DNA of 41,483 nt from Bradyrhizobium sp. (GTDB taxonomy: Bacteria > Pseudomonadota > Alphaproteobacteria > Rhizobiales > Xanthobacteraceae). The notes under the pieces are model-generated. The model was given only the letters and a program-made list of their open reading frames with translations, was not told the origin of the DNA and made no database searches. Every line of letters begins with the position of its first letter. Within the stretch, counting starts at the first letter, position 1. Below are positions 9,088 through 15,800 of the stretch, piece by piece. Location: assembly GCF_019242285.1 (NCBI RefSeq), contig NZ_JAFAVV010000697.1:1-41483 (forward strand), written 5' to 3'. A program made the translations under genes and the position numbers.

Positions 9088-10191
9088 TCATTTCGCCGCC
9101 GCGGTGGCGGCGCCAGGCGCGGGCGTCCTGGTGCGGCGAAAACGAACCACGATGCGGGTACCGGCGTGATTGGGATCGCGCTCCACGCTCGCCTCCAGCT
9201 TGGAGGCCATGGCGCTGACGATCCGCTGGCCCATGCCGGTGGAGCGCGGATCGGACTTGGAATCGGATTCGGAGCTGAAGCCGACGCCGTTGTCGGCGAT
9301 CGACAGCGCCAGGTCTTCGTCCTCGGCAAAGAGGTCGACGTGAATGGGTCCCGCGCAATCCGGATAGGCGTATTTTACCGCGTTCATGACGAGCTCGTTG
9401 ACGATGATGCCGATCGCGACCGCGCGGTCGGGGTCGATCTCGATCGGCTCCGCCTTCAGCGTCAGCCGCGACATCTTGTTGCCTTCGGCCGAGCGGCGAA
9501 GATCGTCGAGCAGGGCGTCGAGATAGGCGTTCAACAGCACGCTCTTGAGGTCCTGCGAGGTGTAGAGCCGGCGGTGCACCTGCGCGACCGCCGCCACCCG
9601 GCCCATCGCATTGGTCAGGGCCGCCTTGACGTCGTCCTGAGCCGCGGAATTGGCCTGCAGATGCAGCAGCGACGCGATGATCTGCAGGCTGTTGCCGACG
9701 CGGTGGTTGACCTCGCGCAGCAGCATCTCGCGCTCGGCGGCGAGCGCCGCGTAGCGGTCGCGCGAGGCGTGGACCTCGGCTTCGGCTTCATCGCGCGCCT
9801 GCTGCAGCGCGGCCTGGCGCAGCGCGCCATCGACTGCGACCTGGAGCAGGGGGATGAAATCGCCGCGCACGTCCTTGACCAGATAGTCGGCCGCTCCCGC
9901 CTTGAGCGCCGTGACCGCGATGTTGGAGTCCTGCGAGGCCGTGACGAAGACGACAGGCGGCGCACCGGGGATCGCCATGATCCGCTCCAGCGTCTGCAGC
10001 CCGTCGAGGCCCGGCATGTACTGGTCGAGCGCCACCACGTCGATGCCGCCCTGCTTCAGGCGCTCCAGGCCATCGGTGCCGCTTGCCGCCGGCACGACCT
10101 TCATCCCGAGGCGTCTCAGGCCGCGCTCCACCAGGCGCGCCAGCGCCGGGTCGTCGTCGATGTAGAGCACCGTGGGCTGCGCGGGGGTCAT
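9088..10191 (-). CDS. Response regulator-histidine kinase, Rec-HisKA_2-HATPase
   Basis: 367 aa, cytoplasmic. An N-terminal receiver domain (about 5-122) has acidic pocket residues DDD12-14, phospho-acceptor Asp56 (VVALDQYMPGLDG), Thr84 and Lys106. A coiled linker leads to a HisKA_2 dimerisation domain with His163 in REVNHRVGNSLQIIASLLHLQA, then a HATPase domain with NELVMNAVKYAYP and DNGVGF. Receiver-first order means kinase output is probably gated by phosphorylation of its own receiver. It is the last gene of a three-gene operon, overlapping the response regulator by 4 nt (ATGA). HisKA_2/HWE kinases feed the alphaproteobacterial general stress response via PhyR in several species; such a role here is inferred only from the EcfG-type promoter of the operon. 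Confidence 0.92.
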   Translation of the reverse strand: MTPAQPTVLYIDDDPALARLVERGLRRLGMKVVPAASGTDGLERLKQGGIDVVALDQYMPGLDGLQTLERIMAIPGAPPVVFVTASQDSNIAVTALKAGAADYLVKDVRGDFIPLLQVAVDGALRQAALQQARDEAEAEVHASRDRYAALAAEREMLLREVNHRVGNSLQIIASLLHLQANSAAQDDVKAALTNAMGRVAAVAQVHRRLYTSQDLKSVLLNAYLDALLDDLRRSAEGNKMSRLTLKAEPIEIDPDRAVAIGIIVNELVMNAVKYAYPDCAGPIHVDLFAEDEDLALSIADNGVGFSSESDSKSDPRSTGMGQRIVSAMASKLEASVERDPNHAGTRIVVRFRRTRTPAPGAATAAAK

Positions 10192-10628
10192 GAGACGGCC
10201 GGAGGAACCTGTATGACGGAGAAGAACAACCCGAGCTGGCGAATGGCGTTGGCGAAACTTTCGTAGTTGACCGGCTTGGTGATGTAGACGTTGCAGCCGA
10301 GCTCGTAGCAGCGCTTGACTTCCTGCGAGTCGTCGGTGGTGGTCAGCACCACGACCGGCGCGCTCTTGAGAAACTTGTTCTCCTTGATCCGCCGCAGGAT
10401 ATCGATGCCCGTCATGTCGGGCAGGTTGAGATCGAGCAGGATCAGCAGGGCCTGCCCATTGTGGTGCTGACCCGTGCCATCGCCGCCGAACAGATACTTG
10501 ACCGCTGCTGTACCGTTGCTGAACGGGATGATCTCGTTGTTCACGCCGGACCGGCGGATGTTCCGCTCGATCAACCGGGCATGTCCTTCGTCATCCTCGA
10601 TCATGAGGATGGTCACGGGGTTGCTCAT
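10188..10628 (-). CDS. Single-domain response regulator, Rcp1-like
   Basis: 146 aa, a receiver domain with no output domain. Acidic pocket EDD (11-13), phospho-acceptor Asp66 in LLDLNLPDMTG, Thr97/Thr98 in VVLTTTDD, and Lys118 in YITKPVN. The long loop after strand 2-helix 2 (FGGDGTGQHHNG) and the C-terminus resemble the Rcp1 type that partners phytochrome-like kinases. The track ORF begins 5 codons upstream; the ATG at 10628-10626 overlaps the upstream kinase stop (ATGA) and is the natural start. It may pass phosphate between the CHASE3 kinase and the receiver-HisKA_2 protein (inference from operon order). Confidence 0.93.
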   Translation of the reverse strand: MSNPVTILMIEDDEGHARLIERNIRRSGVNNEIIPFSNGTAAVKYLFGGDGTGQHHNGQALLILLDLNLPDMTGIDILRRIKENKFLKSAPVVVLTTTDDSQEVKRCYELGCNVYITKPVNYESFANAIRQLGLFFSVIQVPPAVS

Positions 10629-12133
10629 GTGCCTCCACTCCAATTGATCGGCAGGGTTATCGTAAAGGTGCTGCCGCTGTTGAGTTCCGAAGAAACCGAC
10701 ATGGTGCCGCCGAGCCGCCGGACCAGGGCGCGGACATGAGCGAGGCCGATCCCCTGGCCCGGCTTGTCCTGGGTGCCTGCGCGGCGGAACAAGTCGAAGA
10801 TGCGCTGATGGTCCTTGGGATCGATGCCGCGGCCGTTGTCCGATATCTCCAACACCGCAAAGCCGAGCTTGGTGCGGCCGCGGACGGATATCGCGCCGGG
10901 AACGTCAGGCCTGAGATATTTGACCGCGTTGTCGAGCAGGTTGGAGAAAATCTGCTCGAGCGCCAGCCGGTCGCTGACGATCGACGGCAGCGAGTCAACG
11001 TCGATTTTGACGCCGGCCTCCGCGACCTGATGCGCCAGCGTGGACACGATGGCCTCGATCAATTCGCGGATATTGATCCGCTCCGGCACGAAGGTGCGGC
11101 GGCCTTCGCGCGTGAGGTTGAGGATCGCGTTGATCAGCCGGTCCATCTTGTCGATCGACGACTTGATGAACCCCAGCGCCTCGGAGAAGTCCTGCGAGAG
11201 CCGGCTATCTTCACCGCGCAGCTCCGGCTCCTCCTGGTCCGCCGGCACGAGCGCCGGCGCCGCATCGGCGCGCGCAAGCGAGGCGATCCGGCGGAAGATA
11301 TCGCCCCGCAGCTCCTCCAGCTCGCTGGTAAAGCCCATGATGTTGACGAGCGGCGACCGCAGGTCGTGGCTCACGATATAGGCGAAGCGCTGGATCTCGT
11401 CATTGGCTTCCCTGAGATCGGCGGTGCGTTCGTCGATCGTGGCTTCGAGATTGAGATTGCTGTCGCGCAGCGCGGCCTCCGCTTCATCGCGGGCGCGCGC
11501 CGAACGCCGCACCAGGAAGATCGAGATGGCGGCAAGCACGATGACCATGGCCGAGCCCGCGATCGTCACCAGCGTGGCCAGCTGCTCGCTGCGATCGGCG
11601 TTCGCCGTGCGCAGGTTGAACAATCGATCTTCTTCGGCGCGCATGGCATCGGCGACCTCGCGGATCGTTCCGGTCGTGTCGCTGGCTGCCGCCTCGCGGA
11701 CCAGCGCAGCCGCATCTGGCAGCTTGCCCTGTTTCACGAATCTCGTCTCGCGAGCGAACTGGTCGAGCCGGATCTCGATCGCTGCGCGCAGCTTCTTCAG
11801 GTTCTCGACCTGGGCCGGATTATCGGCGGCAAGGTGGTCGAGCCTGTCGAGATCGGGAATGATCCGGGCCACTGCATCCTGATGGTCGGCGAGAAACTCG
11901 GATCCTCCTGTGAGCAGGTAGCCGCGGGCACCGCTTTCGGCGCGACGGATTTCCAGCAGCAGCGCGTTGGTCTGGTTTTCGACCTCGATCGTGTGCACGA
12001 CCCAGCTACTGTCATCGCGCGCCTTGTTGACCAGCAGCACCGATGCCGTGCTGATGGCAACCAACACCAGGAATGCCGCTGAGAGCAGCAGGACTTGTCC
12101 CATCGCGCGGTGGCGCCAAGCAGGCAGCGTCAC
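10625..12133 (-). CDS. CHASE3-domain sensor histidine kinase
   Basis: 502 aa, inner-membrane sensor. TM1 about 13-35, periplasmic CHASE3 domain about 40-185 (NQTNALLLEIRRAESGARGYLLTG), TM2 about 188-208, coiled coil, HisKA with His256 in SHDLRSPLVNIMGF, HATPase with SNLLDNAVKYL, SDNGRGID and GQGIGLAHV. About 45 extra residues, acidic and alanine-rich, separate the H-box helix from SSIDKMDRLINAILNLTREG, longer than usual for HisKA. The start shown is GTG at 12133; an ATG at 12103 (MGQVLLL) would lose 10 residues but keep TM1, and neither has a good ribosome site. First gene of the operon, transcribed from the EcfG-type promoter at 12205-12229. Confidence 0.92.
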   Translation of the reverse strand: MTLPAWRHRAMGQVLLLSAAFLVLVAISTASVLLVNKARDDSSWVVHTIEVENQTNALLLEIRRAESGARGYLLTGGSEFLADHQDAVARIIPDLDRLDHLAADNPAQVENLKKLRAAIEIRLDQFARETRFVKQGKLPDAAALVREAAASDTTGTIREVADAMRAEEDRLFNLRTANADRSEQLATLVTIAGSAMVIVLAAISIFLVRRSARARDEAEAALRDSNLNLEATIDERTADLREANDEIQRFAYIVSHDLRSPLVNIMGFTSELEELRGDIFRRIASLARADAAPALVPADQEEPELRGEDSRLSQDFSEALGFIKSSIDKMDRLINAILNLTREGRRTFVPERINIRELIEAIVSTLAHQVAEAGVKIDVDSLPSIVSDRLALEQIFSNLLDNAVKYLRPDVPGAISVRGRTKLGFAVLEISDNGRGIDPKDHQRIFDLFRRAGTQDKPGQGIGLAHVRALVRRLGGTMSVSSELNSGSTFTITLPINWSGGT

Positions 12134-12204
12134 TACGCGCTCGCGTCGTCAGAATTGAGAATTTCGACGTCCCCCGAACGGAAAACGGCACTAAGCCCAA
12201 TCCT

Positions 12205-12229
12205 AACGCGGTGGAAACCGTTTGGTTCC
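12205..12229 (-). promoter_or_regulatory. EcfG-type (general stress) promoter
   Basis: On the minus strand the spacer between accC and the CHASE3 kinase holds GGAAC (12229-12225), 16 nt, then CGTT (12208-12205). This is a perfect match to the known alphaproteobacterial EcfG consensus GGAAC-N16/17-CGTT. Transcription would begin near 12198, about 65 nt upstream of the GTG start. The near-palindrome TGGAAACC/GGTTCCA within it is probably incidental. Confidence 0.75.
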
Positions 12230-12260: not shown

Positions 12261-13610
<1,350 letters not shown>

Positions 13611-13619
13611 GTTGTCCCA

Positions 13620-13673
13620 AGGGGCGAATGGCGAATGAGAAGATACCATTCGCTGTTCGCTACTCCCTACTCA
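13620..13673. repeat. Inverted heptanucleotide repeat in accB-accC spacer
   Basis: The spacer is nearly all degenerate 7-mers: GGCGAAT, GGCGAAT on one side, and CATTCGC, TGTTCGC, TACTCCC, TACTCAC on the other, the last overlapping the accB stop codon. The two sides are inverted, giving an 8-bp hairpin GCGAATGG (13624-13631) with CCATTCGC (13646-13653). I recall similar TATTCGC-type heptad runs from Bradyrhizobium intergenic regions; this was not checked. Confidence 0.65.
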
Positions 13674-14887: not shown

Positions 14888-15736
14888 TCAGGATTCGAGG
14901 ATCGCCACGATCTCGAACGTCGCGGGATCGATCACGACGATCTGGTCGCGGACCAGGATGAAGTCATAGCCGCGCCACTCCGGATAGATCGTCACGACCT
15001 CGGTGGGGAGCGGGCGGTATTGCACGTCGCGCGGCACGCGGGTGCCGACCGACACCGAGAAGTTCACGTTGGTGACCGGAGCCACGTGCTCGTTGCGGAT
15101 CACGGTCGTGATCTTGGTGCGCTGCTCGGTCGAGAGCTTGGCGCCGGAGGCGGCCATACCCGTCGTGGTCTGAGACCGTCCACCTTCGCGACCCTCGGCC
15201 TTCAGGTTGTTGTTGTCGCGGCCCTCGCGGCCTTCAGCCTTCATATTGTCGCGGCCTTCACGGCCTTCGGCCTTCATGTTGTCGCGGCTTTCACGGCCTT
15301 CGGCCTTCATGTTGTTGTCGCGGGTCTCCCGGCCTTCAGCCTTCATGTTGTTGTTGTCGCGGCCTTCGCGACCCTCGGCCTTCATGTTGCCCTTCTGGCC
15401 CTCGCGGGTCTCGGCCTTCATGTTGCCGCTCTTGCTCTCGTTCTCGGAGCTCATGTTCTTGGACTTCTGGCCCGGGGCGCCTTCCTCGGCGCGCTGGCCC
15501 TTCGGCGCAGCCTGCTCGGATTGCGACGACTTCGCCTCGGACGGCCCGCCCTTGGTTTCGGCGGATTTCGGCTCGGCCGCCTCGCGGCCCGACGGCGCGG
15601 CGGCGCCACCGGCAGGCGCGCCCTGTTGCATCGCGGCGCCACCCTGCTGGTGCGTGCCGCCCTGCTGCGCATTGGCTACTCCGGCACCGGCGACCAGCGC
15701 GAGCGCGGCGACCGAGACCATGAAACGATTCGTCAT
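14888..15736 (-). CDS. DUF1236 protein with tandem NMKAEGREGRD repeats
   Basis: 282 aa. Signal peptide MTNRFMVSVAALALVAGAGVANAQ (cleavage near 24). Residues 25-100 are Gly/Ala/Gln-rich then charged. Residues 105-188 hold seven tandem copies of an 11-13-residue unit (NMKAEGREGRD plus 0-2 extra Asn). The C-terminal 200-282 is DUF1236 (STEQRTKITTVIRNEHVAPVTNVNFSVSVGTRVP, then IYPEWRGYDFILVRDQIVVIDPATFEIVAIL). Exported, probably periplasmic; function unknown. AGGAGA lies 7 nt before the ATG, and a perfect EcfG-type promoter lies 40 nt upstream, so it is probably induced in the general stress response. The repeats are very hydrophilic and lack order-promoting residues, so probably disordered. Confidence 0.9.
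   Translation of the reverse strand: MTNRFMVSVAALALVAGAGVANAQQGGTHQQGGAAMQQGAPAGGAAAPSGREAAEPKSAETKGGPSEAKSSQSEQAAPKGQRAEEGAPGQKSKNMSSENESKSGNMKAETREGQKGNMKAEGREGRDNNNMKAEGRETRDNNMKAEGRESRDNMKAEGREGRDNMKAEGREGRDNNNLKAEGREGGRSQTTTGMAASGAKLSTEQRTKITTVIRNEHVAPVTNVNFSVSVGTRVPRDVQYRPLPTEVVTIYPEWRGYDFILVRDQIVVIDPATFEIVAILES
15173..15424 (-). repeat. In-gene minisatellite, 33-39-nt units
   Basis: DNA encoding the seven tandem peptide units of the DUF1236 protein (residues 105-188). The core unit is 33 nt, expanded by one or two AAC-type codons in some copies, so all unit lengths are multiples of 3 and copy-number change would stay in frame. Copies 2-6 are most alike; the first and last are degenerate, the usual pattern of a tandem array. 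Confidence 0.85.
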
Positions 15737-15775: not shown

Positions 15776-15800
15776 AACGAGAAGAGACAGCAGATGTTCC
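15776..15800 (-). promoter_or_regulatory. EcfG-type (general stress) promoter of DUF1236 gene
   Basis: On the minus strand: GGAAC (15800-15796), 16 nt, CGTT (15779-15776), a perfect match to GGAAC-N16/17-CGTT. Transcription would begin near 15768, leaving about a 30-nt leader that includes AGGAGA before the DUF1236 ATG. The position is exactly what is expected for a real promoter. Confidence 0.8.

Follow-up and report, generated by a model that had tools for sequence, protein, structure and literature searches.

A three-gene operon of two kinases and a response regulator

The window, i.e., the whole stretch of 41,483 nucleotides of Bradyrhizobium sp. that we analysed, carries three adjoining signalling genes on its reverse strand. 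The first, HK1 (10625-12133, with a GTG start at 12133), encodes a KipF-like sensor kinase with CHASE3, HisKA, and HATPase domains (Pfam, 6.1e-36 for CHASE3, 4e-10 for HisKA, and 4.3e-26 for HATPase_c). Its CHASE3 sensor domain (residues 42-177, positions 11603-12010) has a hydrophobic segment on either side, one near residues 14-35 and one near 186-208. The second gene, RR2 (10188-10628), encodes an Rcp1-type single-domain response regulator of 146 aa (Pfam Response_reg), and the third, RRHK3 (9088-10191), a PakF-like kinase made of a receiver (REC), a HisKA_2, and an HATPase domain (Pfam Response_reg, HisKA_2, and HATPase; 6.7e-23 for HisKA_2). A first-pass annotation had described a CHASE3 kinase, an Rcp1-like receiver, and a receiver-first HisKA_2 kinase joined by two ATGA overlaps. 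The open reading frames and Pfam profiles bear out this make-up, and the overlaps lie at 10625-10628 (HK1/RR2) and 10188-10191 (RR2/RRHK3). The same spacing of -4 recurs at both junctions in the loci of the genus Bradyrhizobium that we checked. Upstream of HK1, and outside the module, lies an accC-like gene (12261-13649, reverse strand), an open reading frame that we named by eye from its sequence.

A conserved EcfG-type promoter precedes the operon in Bradyrhizobium and its relatives

Between the stop codon of the accC-like gene and HK1 we found a candidate EcfG-type promoter at 12205-12229 on the reverse strand, an exact match composed of a -35 element GGAAC (12229-12225), a 16-nt spacer, and a -10 element CGTT (12208-12205). 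The perfect site announced in the first-pass annotation is thus there; 71 bases separate its end from the GTG at 12133. A scan for sigma-70 promoters upstream of the operon returned none. Motif counts alone were rejected as evidence: the window holds 2 matches to GGAAC-N16-CGTT against 0.40 expected, a number reached in 8 of 100 shuffles, and the 95 matches in the genome are about as many as the reversed control gives (86).

We therefore relied on conservation, using the accC-like gene as a conserved left anchor to collect intergenic regions. Among 64 distinct accC-kinase intergenic regions of Bradyrhizobium and near relatives, 53 contain a perfect GGAAC-N16/17-CGTT and 62 a copy with at most one mismatch. 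Permuted motifs have a mean of 0.18 perfect copies in the same 64 regions, and it is because of this difference that we count the site as real. In the aligned regions the spacer bases drift while both boxes stay, and the motif keeps a conserved distance from the kinase gene, as expected of a member of the EcfG regulon. The motif is also perfect at locus L007, which is the same place as L036. This phylogenetic footprint supports the EcfG-type control proposed in the first-pass annotation, and the operon is probably transcribed from an EcfG promoter in the Bradyrhizobium family, as judged from sequence conservation.

Several groups of ECF sigma factors share GGAAC-like -35 elements, and the promoters of phyR and nepR in this same genome are imperfect (GGAAC-N16-AGTA and GGAAC-N16-CATT, respectively). 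Both facts would suit a scenario in which the conserved motif serves some other ECF sigma factor and EcfG only seems to be in control. We regard this as very improbable: the other perfect site of the window is also kept before its gene, in 12 of 12 relatives, and both boxes and the 16/17 spacing fit the published EcfG consensus, GAAC-N16,17-C/GGTT (PMC4814048).

The module is more widespread than its promoter

The order HK1-RR2-RRHK3 was found in all 57 order-level loci, in 14 of 20 class-level loci, and in 79/79 testable named loci, the latter including Sphingomonas, Caulobacter, Brevundimonas, Methylobacterium, Azospirillum, and Rhizobium. It is not universal: the parts are spread across separate loci in one genome (G633), and the RRHK3-like genes at three class-level loci come with no clear RR2. 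The first kinase of a Methylobacterium locus (L257) has MHYT-PAS in place of CHASE3.

The promoter has a narrower range. It is present in Bradyrhizobium, Rhodopseudomonas, Tardiphaga, and Afipia, and other families have it at few loci. Beyond the Bradyrhizobium family the motif is mostly missing near the kinase; L145 and L265 are among the sporadic exceptions. EcfG control was accordingly rejected as a general property of the module. Since most of the other lineages that bear the module miss the promoter, autoregulation is not essential to the module's working.

RRHK3 is an intact HisKA_2 kinase headed by a receiver

RRHK3 has its phospho-acceptor, D56, in the receiver and an H-box (N162-H163-R164-V165-G166-N167) in the DHp domain. 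Residues D56, K106, H163, R164, N167, E266, N270, D300, G302, G304, and G321 are present in 137/137 aligned rows. The protein has the features of the HWE/HisKA_2 family as given in PMC12148442: the HRxxN motif, a Glu in place of the first Asn of the N-box, and intact ATP-binding glycines. We rejected the possibility that it is a degenerate phosphotransferase like PhyT, because the ATPase residues are intact in 137/137 rows. It also lacks a membrane anchor of the PhyT type, since it begins directly with the receiver.

The AlphaFold2 model places a continuous helix at residues 112-182 (positions 9646-9858, reverse strand; mean pLDDT 84.4), running from alpha5 of the receiver to the first helix of DHp, and this helix is a candidate signalling coiled coil. 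It models a single chain with a pTM of 0.54: the helix is confident, but the arrangement of the domains and the dimer state are uncertain. The spacing between the receiver Lys and the DHp His is 50 or 57 residues, i.e., one heptad apart, in 109/109 sequences measured. The best full-length fold match of RRHK3 is LvrB (8VC9), with which it shares the REC-DHp-CA architecture and a continuous alphaS helix in heptad steps.

The operon resembles the KipF-PakF pathway

The closest likeness in known systems is KipF-PakF of Sphingomonas melonis Fr1, which likewise pairs a CHASE3-HisKA kinase with a REC-HisKA_2 kinase where the receiver replaces the sensor and the H-box is of the HRxxN type. The description of KipF gives it a CHASE3 domain and suggests that it takes part in salt sensing (PMC10950880). 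PakF is described as being phosphorylated by KipF in the stress response and is likened to LvrB, a kinase that has no sensor of its own (PMC5863495); in vitro PakF phosphorylates PhyR and SdrG (PMC5898713). Six of six Sphingomonas genomes, Fr1 not among them, have exactly one full-length match to RRHK3 (REC plus HisKA_2). Their loci have the CHASE3-HisKA kinase upstream and the REC-HisKA_2 kinase downstream, with the same Rcp1-like regulator in between. The operon thus appears to match KipF-PakF in domain architecture, gene order, and genome uniqueness, the Fr1 proteins being known from their descriptions. One difference stands out: the conserved EcfG promoter precedes the operon in Bradyrhizobium and its relatives, whereas none was found at the Sphingomonas operons examined.

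LvrA-LvrB of Leptospira is a further parallel. LvrB shares with RRHK3 the REC-DHp-CA architecture and the helical linker in heptad steps, and it is activated by phosphorylation of its receiver via an upstream kinase, as proposed for RRHK3. Receiver phosphorylation is reported to make alphaS form a coiled coil that frees the kinase, and LvrC is named as the output (PMC13269768); the accessible text mentions no Rcp1-type middle regulator. LvrA differs from HK1 in that it is a hybrid kinase and carries an acceptor Asp itself (PMC5863495).

RR2 is the most conserved protein of the three

The mean pairwise distance is 0.29 for RR2, against 0.48 and 0.58 for the two others. Its phospho-acceptor D65 (numbering without the initial Met), T95, and K117 are present in 137/137 rows, and E10, D11, and D12 in 136/137. 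The best profile match among solved structures is 3HEB, followed by others that include the phytochrome regulators RcpA, Rcp1, and RcpB. RR2 belongs to the same Rcp1/RcpA structural family as the regulators of Cph1-Rcp1 phytochrome pairs and likewise adjoins a HisKA kinase, but its operon has a CHASE3 sensor instead of a phytochrome and adds a REC-HisKA_2 kinase as the third component. The Pak-SdrG-PhyT-PhyR and CC2874-MrrA-PhyK-PhyR pathways also place a single-domain regulator and HWE/HisKA_2 proteins upstream of PhyR. Their SdrG and MrrA are FATGUY regulators, whereas RR2 is Rcp1-type and operon-bound. At the position of the PFxFATG(G/Y) of SdrG and MrrA it reads PVVVLTTTDD, and we rejected it as their orthologue for lack of the FATGUY motif and for its Rcp1-type profile.

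The first-pass annotation had the three proteins act in series, from the CHASE3 kinase to the single-domain regulator to the receiver-gated kinase. This chain is not supported. Phosphoryl groups are not known to pass directly between receiver Asps, a His having to intervene, and RR2 is therefore unable to charge the receiver of RRHK3; it could at most charge His163. It is more likely that HK1 phosphorylates the RRHK3 receiver directly. A chemically possible form of the chain is a linear phosphorelay from HK1 to RR2, to His163 of RRHK3, which would serve as a phosphotransferase, and on to PhyR. It would have precedents in the transfers from SdrG to PhyT to PhyR (PMC5898713) and from the HisKA kinase CC2874 to MrrA to PhyK/LovK (PMC5964349), and RR2 is kept between both kinases throughout the class. 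We nevertheless find it rather unlikely, since RR2 lacks the PFxFATG of SdrG and MrrA and since RRHK3 retains its complete ATPase and receiver, neither of which would be needed in a pure phosphotransferase.

Our best guess for RR2 is that it serves HK1 as a hub or as a phosphate sink. More speculatively, RR2 might be an active third part of an ancient alphaproteobacterial stress switch, e.g., as a second output or as a phosphate sink by which the threshold of RRHK3 is set, with EcfG autoregulation making the module a self-reinforcing or self-limiting loop in Bradyrhizobium and its relatives; we put this forward tentatively. We found no published role for a middle regulator of this type. A protein that is kept class-wide and is the most conserved of its operon raises a clear question that could be addressed cheaply in any alphaproteobacterial model.

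A putative input of the general stress response

The genes phyR, nepR, and ecfG are all found in the same genome. The role as an input of the general stress response that the first-pass annotation had assigned to the operon is supported by its match to KipF-PakF in domains, gene order, and genome uniqueness; because KipF-PakF is a known two-tier input of this response in Sphingomonas, the operon is likely one as well. We consider it probable that the operon is the form which the KipF-PakF pathway takes in Bradyrhizobium, an input of PhyR-NepR-EcfG that is itself transcribed by EcfG, which suggests a feedback loop. The module is of a kind already known from KipF-PakF, with a probable EcfG control that is specific to the family.

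By analogy with KipF, the membrane kinase HK1 would sense an envelope signal, such as salt or ionic strength, through CHASE3 and autophosphorylate on its HisKA histidine. It would then phosphorylate D56 in the receiver of RRHK3 and, probably, D65 of RR2. The phosphorylated receivers would rearrange so that the continuous alphaS helix zips into a coiled coil and releases the catalytic domain, and the freed RRHK3 would autophosphorylate on H163 and phosphorylate PhyR. Phosphorylated PhyR would draw NepR off EcfG, which would transcribe its regulon, this operon included. We infer which signal is sensed, which proteins are phosphotransfer partners, that PhyR is the target, that EcfG transcribes the operon, and what sign the feedback has.

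HisKA_2 kinases are numerous, and PhyR is a candidate target of RRHK3 in Bradyrhizobium. The operon might be an EcfG target whose output is not PhyR, RRHK3 and RR2 serving another regulator or process. The sequence does not reveal the partners of HisKA_2 kinases here, RR2 lacks an output domain, and 73 places in the genome have some similarity to RRHK3, mostly via the receiver or kinase domain; yet the known PhyR kinases are HRxxN kinases, PakF among them, and we hold another output to be unlikely.

The sign of the loop could also be the opposite of activation. Many histidine kinases are bifunctional, and the EcfG-driven operon could be mainly a brake in which RR2, with HK1 or RRHK3, drains phosphoryls from PhyR or the upstream hub and so turns the response off. 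The strongest conservation among the three proteins, that of RR2, would fit such a role of its own. In Caulobacter, lovKR is under positive control of SigT and is believed to damp the response (PMC5964349). Two points speak against a brake: KipF and PakF, the nearest relatives that have been studied, are described as activators of the response, and the ATPase of RRHK3 is intact in 137/137 rows, unlike that of the degenerate PhyT type. We hold negative feedback to be rather unlikely.

In the accessible literature we found no named PhyR-activating kinase of Bradyrhizobium, although efficient soybean infection depends on the stress response (PMC8092242). The operon provides a specific and conserved candidate for this function. 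It predicts a class of signal, salt or envelope stress perceived via CHASE3, an LvrB-like gating of the second kinase that has a solved precedent, and a feedback link between the general stress response and one of its inputs.

The operon and its probable promoter

The three genes lie on the minus strand. HK1 (10625-12133), with CHASE3, HisKA, and HATPase_c domains, starts at a GTG (12133). It is followed by RR2 (10188-10628), which is one receiver with no further domain, and by RRHK3 (9088-10191), with receiver, HisKA_2, and HATPase domains (all Pfam). They are joined by ATGA overlaps at 10628-10625 and 10191-10188, and an exact EcfG-type motif, GGAAC-N16-CGTT, lies upstream at 12229-12205 (minus strand). 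All the positions of genes and promoter-like site in the first-pass annotation were exact upon re-check. The operon is flanked upstream by an accC-like gene and downstream by a gene for a leucyl/phenylalanyl-tRNA-protein transferase (Pfam Leu_Phe_trans). At about residues 270-320 of HK1, an insertion of variable length lies between the two DHp helices; the H-box and N-box are 139-149 residues apart in sequences of the Bradyrhizobium group, and in most others the distance is 123-135.

Counting motifs was not decisive on the promoter, because the genome has 95 exact matches, close to the 86 of the reversed control pattern. We thus turn to the 64 distinct intergenic versions of the Bradyrhizobium group in which the kinase gene follows accC. 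GGAAC-N16/17-CGTT is perfect in 53 and has at most one mismatch in 62, against a mean of 0.18 perfect occurrences for about 300 permuted motifs in the same test. The single high-scoring permutation, GGAAC with GTTC (22), is explained by a one-base shift of the true motif. The spacer is free to vary, except that GGAAC tends to be followed by C and CGTT to be preceded by G, and the motif lies about 85-115 nt upstream of the kinase start in relatives. Since this footprint is conserved and agrees with the published consensus, GAAC-N16,17-C/GGTT (PMC4814048), the operon is very likely under EcfG control, as had been proposed. Because the motif is absent at most module loci examined in other families, the predicted control is a trait of the Bradyrhizobium family and not a general property of the module.

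A second perfect GGAAC-N16-CGTT occurs at 15776-15800 (minus strand). The gene that begins 39 nt behind it (14888-15736, minus strand) belongs to DUF1236 and encodes NMKAEGREGRD-like repeats. The motif is kept upstream of the orthologue in 12/12 relatives, which makes this gene very likely a further EcfG target. In a genome of another family (G037, locus L043), small genes run divergently from the operon and have a perfect EcfG motif in front of them, on the opposite strand to the operon (minus strand, about 3345-3321); one of these genes resembles, by eye, ferritin-like stress proteins.

A three-gene module across Alphaproteobacteria

Using RR2 as a probe, we found it in 96 of 398 genomes of the order. 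It sits between HK1-like and RRHK3-like kinases, in the same order, in 57/57 examined order-level loci. All three genes occur at 14/20 class-wide loci; the exceptions are one genome whose parts are scattered over different loci, and three RRHK3-like genes that lack a clear RR2. They are also in order at 79/79 testable loci of a set with organism names (Bradyrhizobium, Rhodopseudomonas, Afipia, Tardiphaga, Methylobacterium, Brevundimonas, Caulobacter, Sphingomonas, Azospirillum, Rhizobium, and others). These three sets partly overlap. The pairwise distances of the proteins correlate (r = 0.77 to 0.92, 128 loci), as would be expected from joint inheritance, even if the shared ancestry of the genomes would by itself produce a correlation of this kind. 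In a Methylobacterium locus (L257, 2915-4471), and possibly in similar ones of this genus, the sensor is MHYT-PAS instead of CHASE3, with no loss of the kinase core, RR2, or RRHK3, a natural sensor swap.

RRHK3 as a probable receiver-gated kinase

Unlike PhyT, RRHK3 is most likely a live kinase, because its key receiver and kinase residues (D56, K106, H163, R164, N167, E266, N270, D300, G302, G304, and G321) are invariant in 137/137 rows. In all 109 measurable sequences, the receiver Lys and the phospho-accepting His are separated by either 57 residues (60 sequences) or 50 (49 sequences); the difference is one heptad step, as a coiled coil would require. Residues 112-182, from receiver alpha5 through the histidine, form a single helix in the AlphaFold model. 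Among PDB structures, LvrB (8VC9) gives the best fold match over the full length. PMC13269768 describes how phosphorylation of the LvrB receiver makes the alphaS helices zip up as a coiled coil, freeing the catalytic domain, and states that receiver-controlled kinases generally favour linker steps of seven. Together, spacing, modelled helix, and LvrB fold and mechanism make receiver-gated control of RRHK3 well supported by analogy. HK1 would be the obvious phosphoryl donor to this receiver.

The place of RR2

The first-pass annotation proposed a serial chain from HK1 through RR2 to RRHK3. This goes too far: a phosphoryl group is not known to pass directly between two receiver aspartates, so RR2 should be unable to charge the receiver of RRHK3. 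Instead, RR2 could be phosphorylated by HK1, it could serve as a hub or sink, or it could donate phosphoryl groups to His163 of RRHK3. The last of these has precedents in SdrG, which charges PhyT (PMC5898713), and MrrA, which charges PhyK and LovK (PMC5964349). RR2 is an Rcp1-type regulator, not a FATGUY one. With a mean pairwise distance of 0.29, it is more conserved than RRHK3 (0.48) and HK1 (0.58); we found no role assigned to it in the literature.

Probable relation to KipF-PakF and the general stress response

In Sphingomonas melonis, the CHASE3 kinase KipF has a suggested salt-sensing role (PMC10950880) and phosphorylates PakF, likened to the sensor-less LvrB, during the stress response (PMC5863495). 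Each of six Sphingomonas genomes has exactly one RRHK3 match spanning receiver and kinase, and in both of the genomes examined with Pfam it is encoded behind a CHASE3-HisKA kinase (2/2). For these reasons the operon is most likely the kipF-pakF orthologue, as judged by architecture, gene order, and uniqueness. The window's own genome encodes phyR, nepR, and ecfG; phyR and nepR-ecfG are divergent, and the region between them holds EcfG-like elements. An IS110-family transposase gene (Pfam Transposase_20; locus L082, contig C297, 5082-6251) lies directly 3' of ecfG.

The type of circuit is already known from KipF-PakF and LvrB, and Caulobacter provides a precedent for sigma-factor control of stress kinases. 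Feedback through the present operon may be of either sign; in Caulobacter, lovKR is driven by SigT and thought to dampen the stress response (PMC5964349). New relative to the literature we found are the class-wide three-gene module, with its highly conserved and unexplained middle regulator, the assignment of this operon, and the conservation of its putative EcfG promoter in the Bradyrhizobium family.
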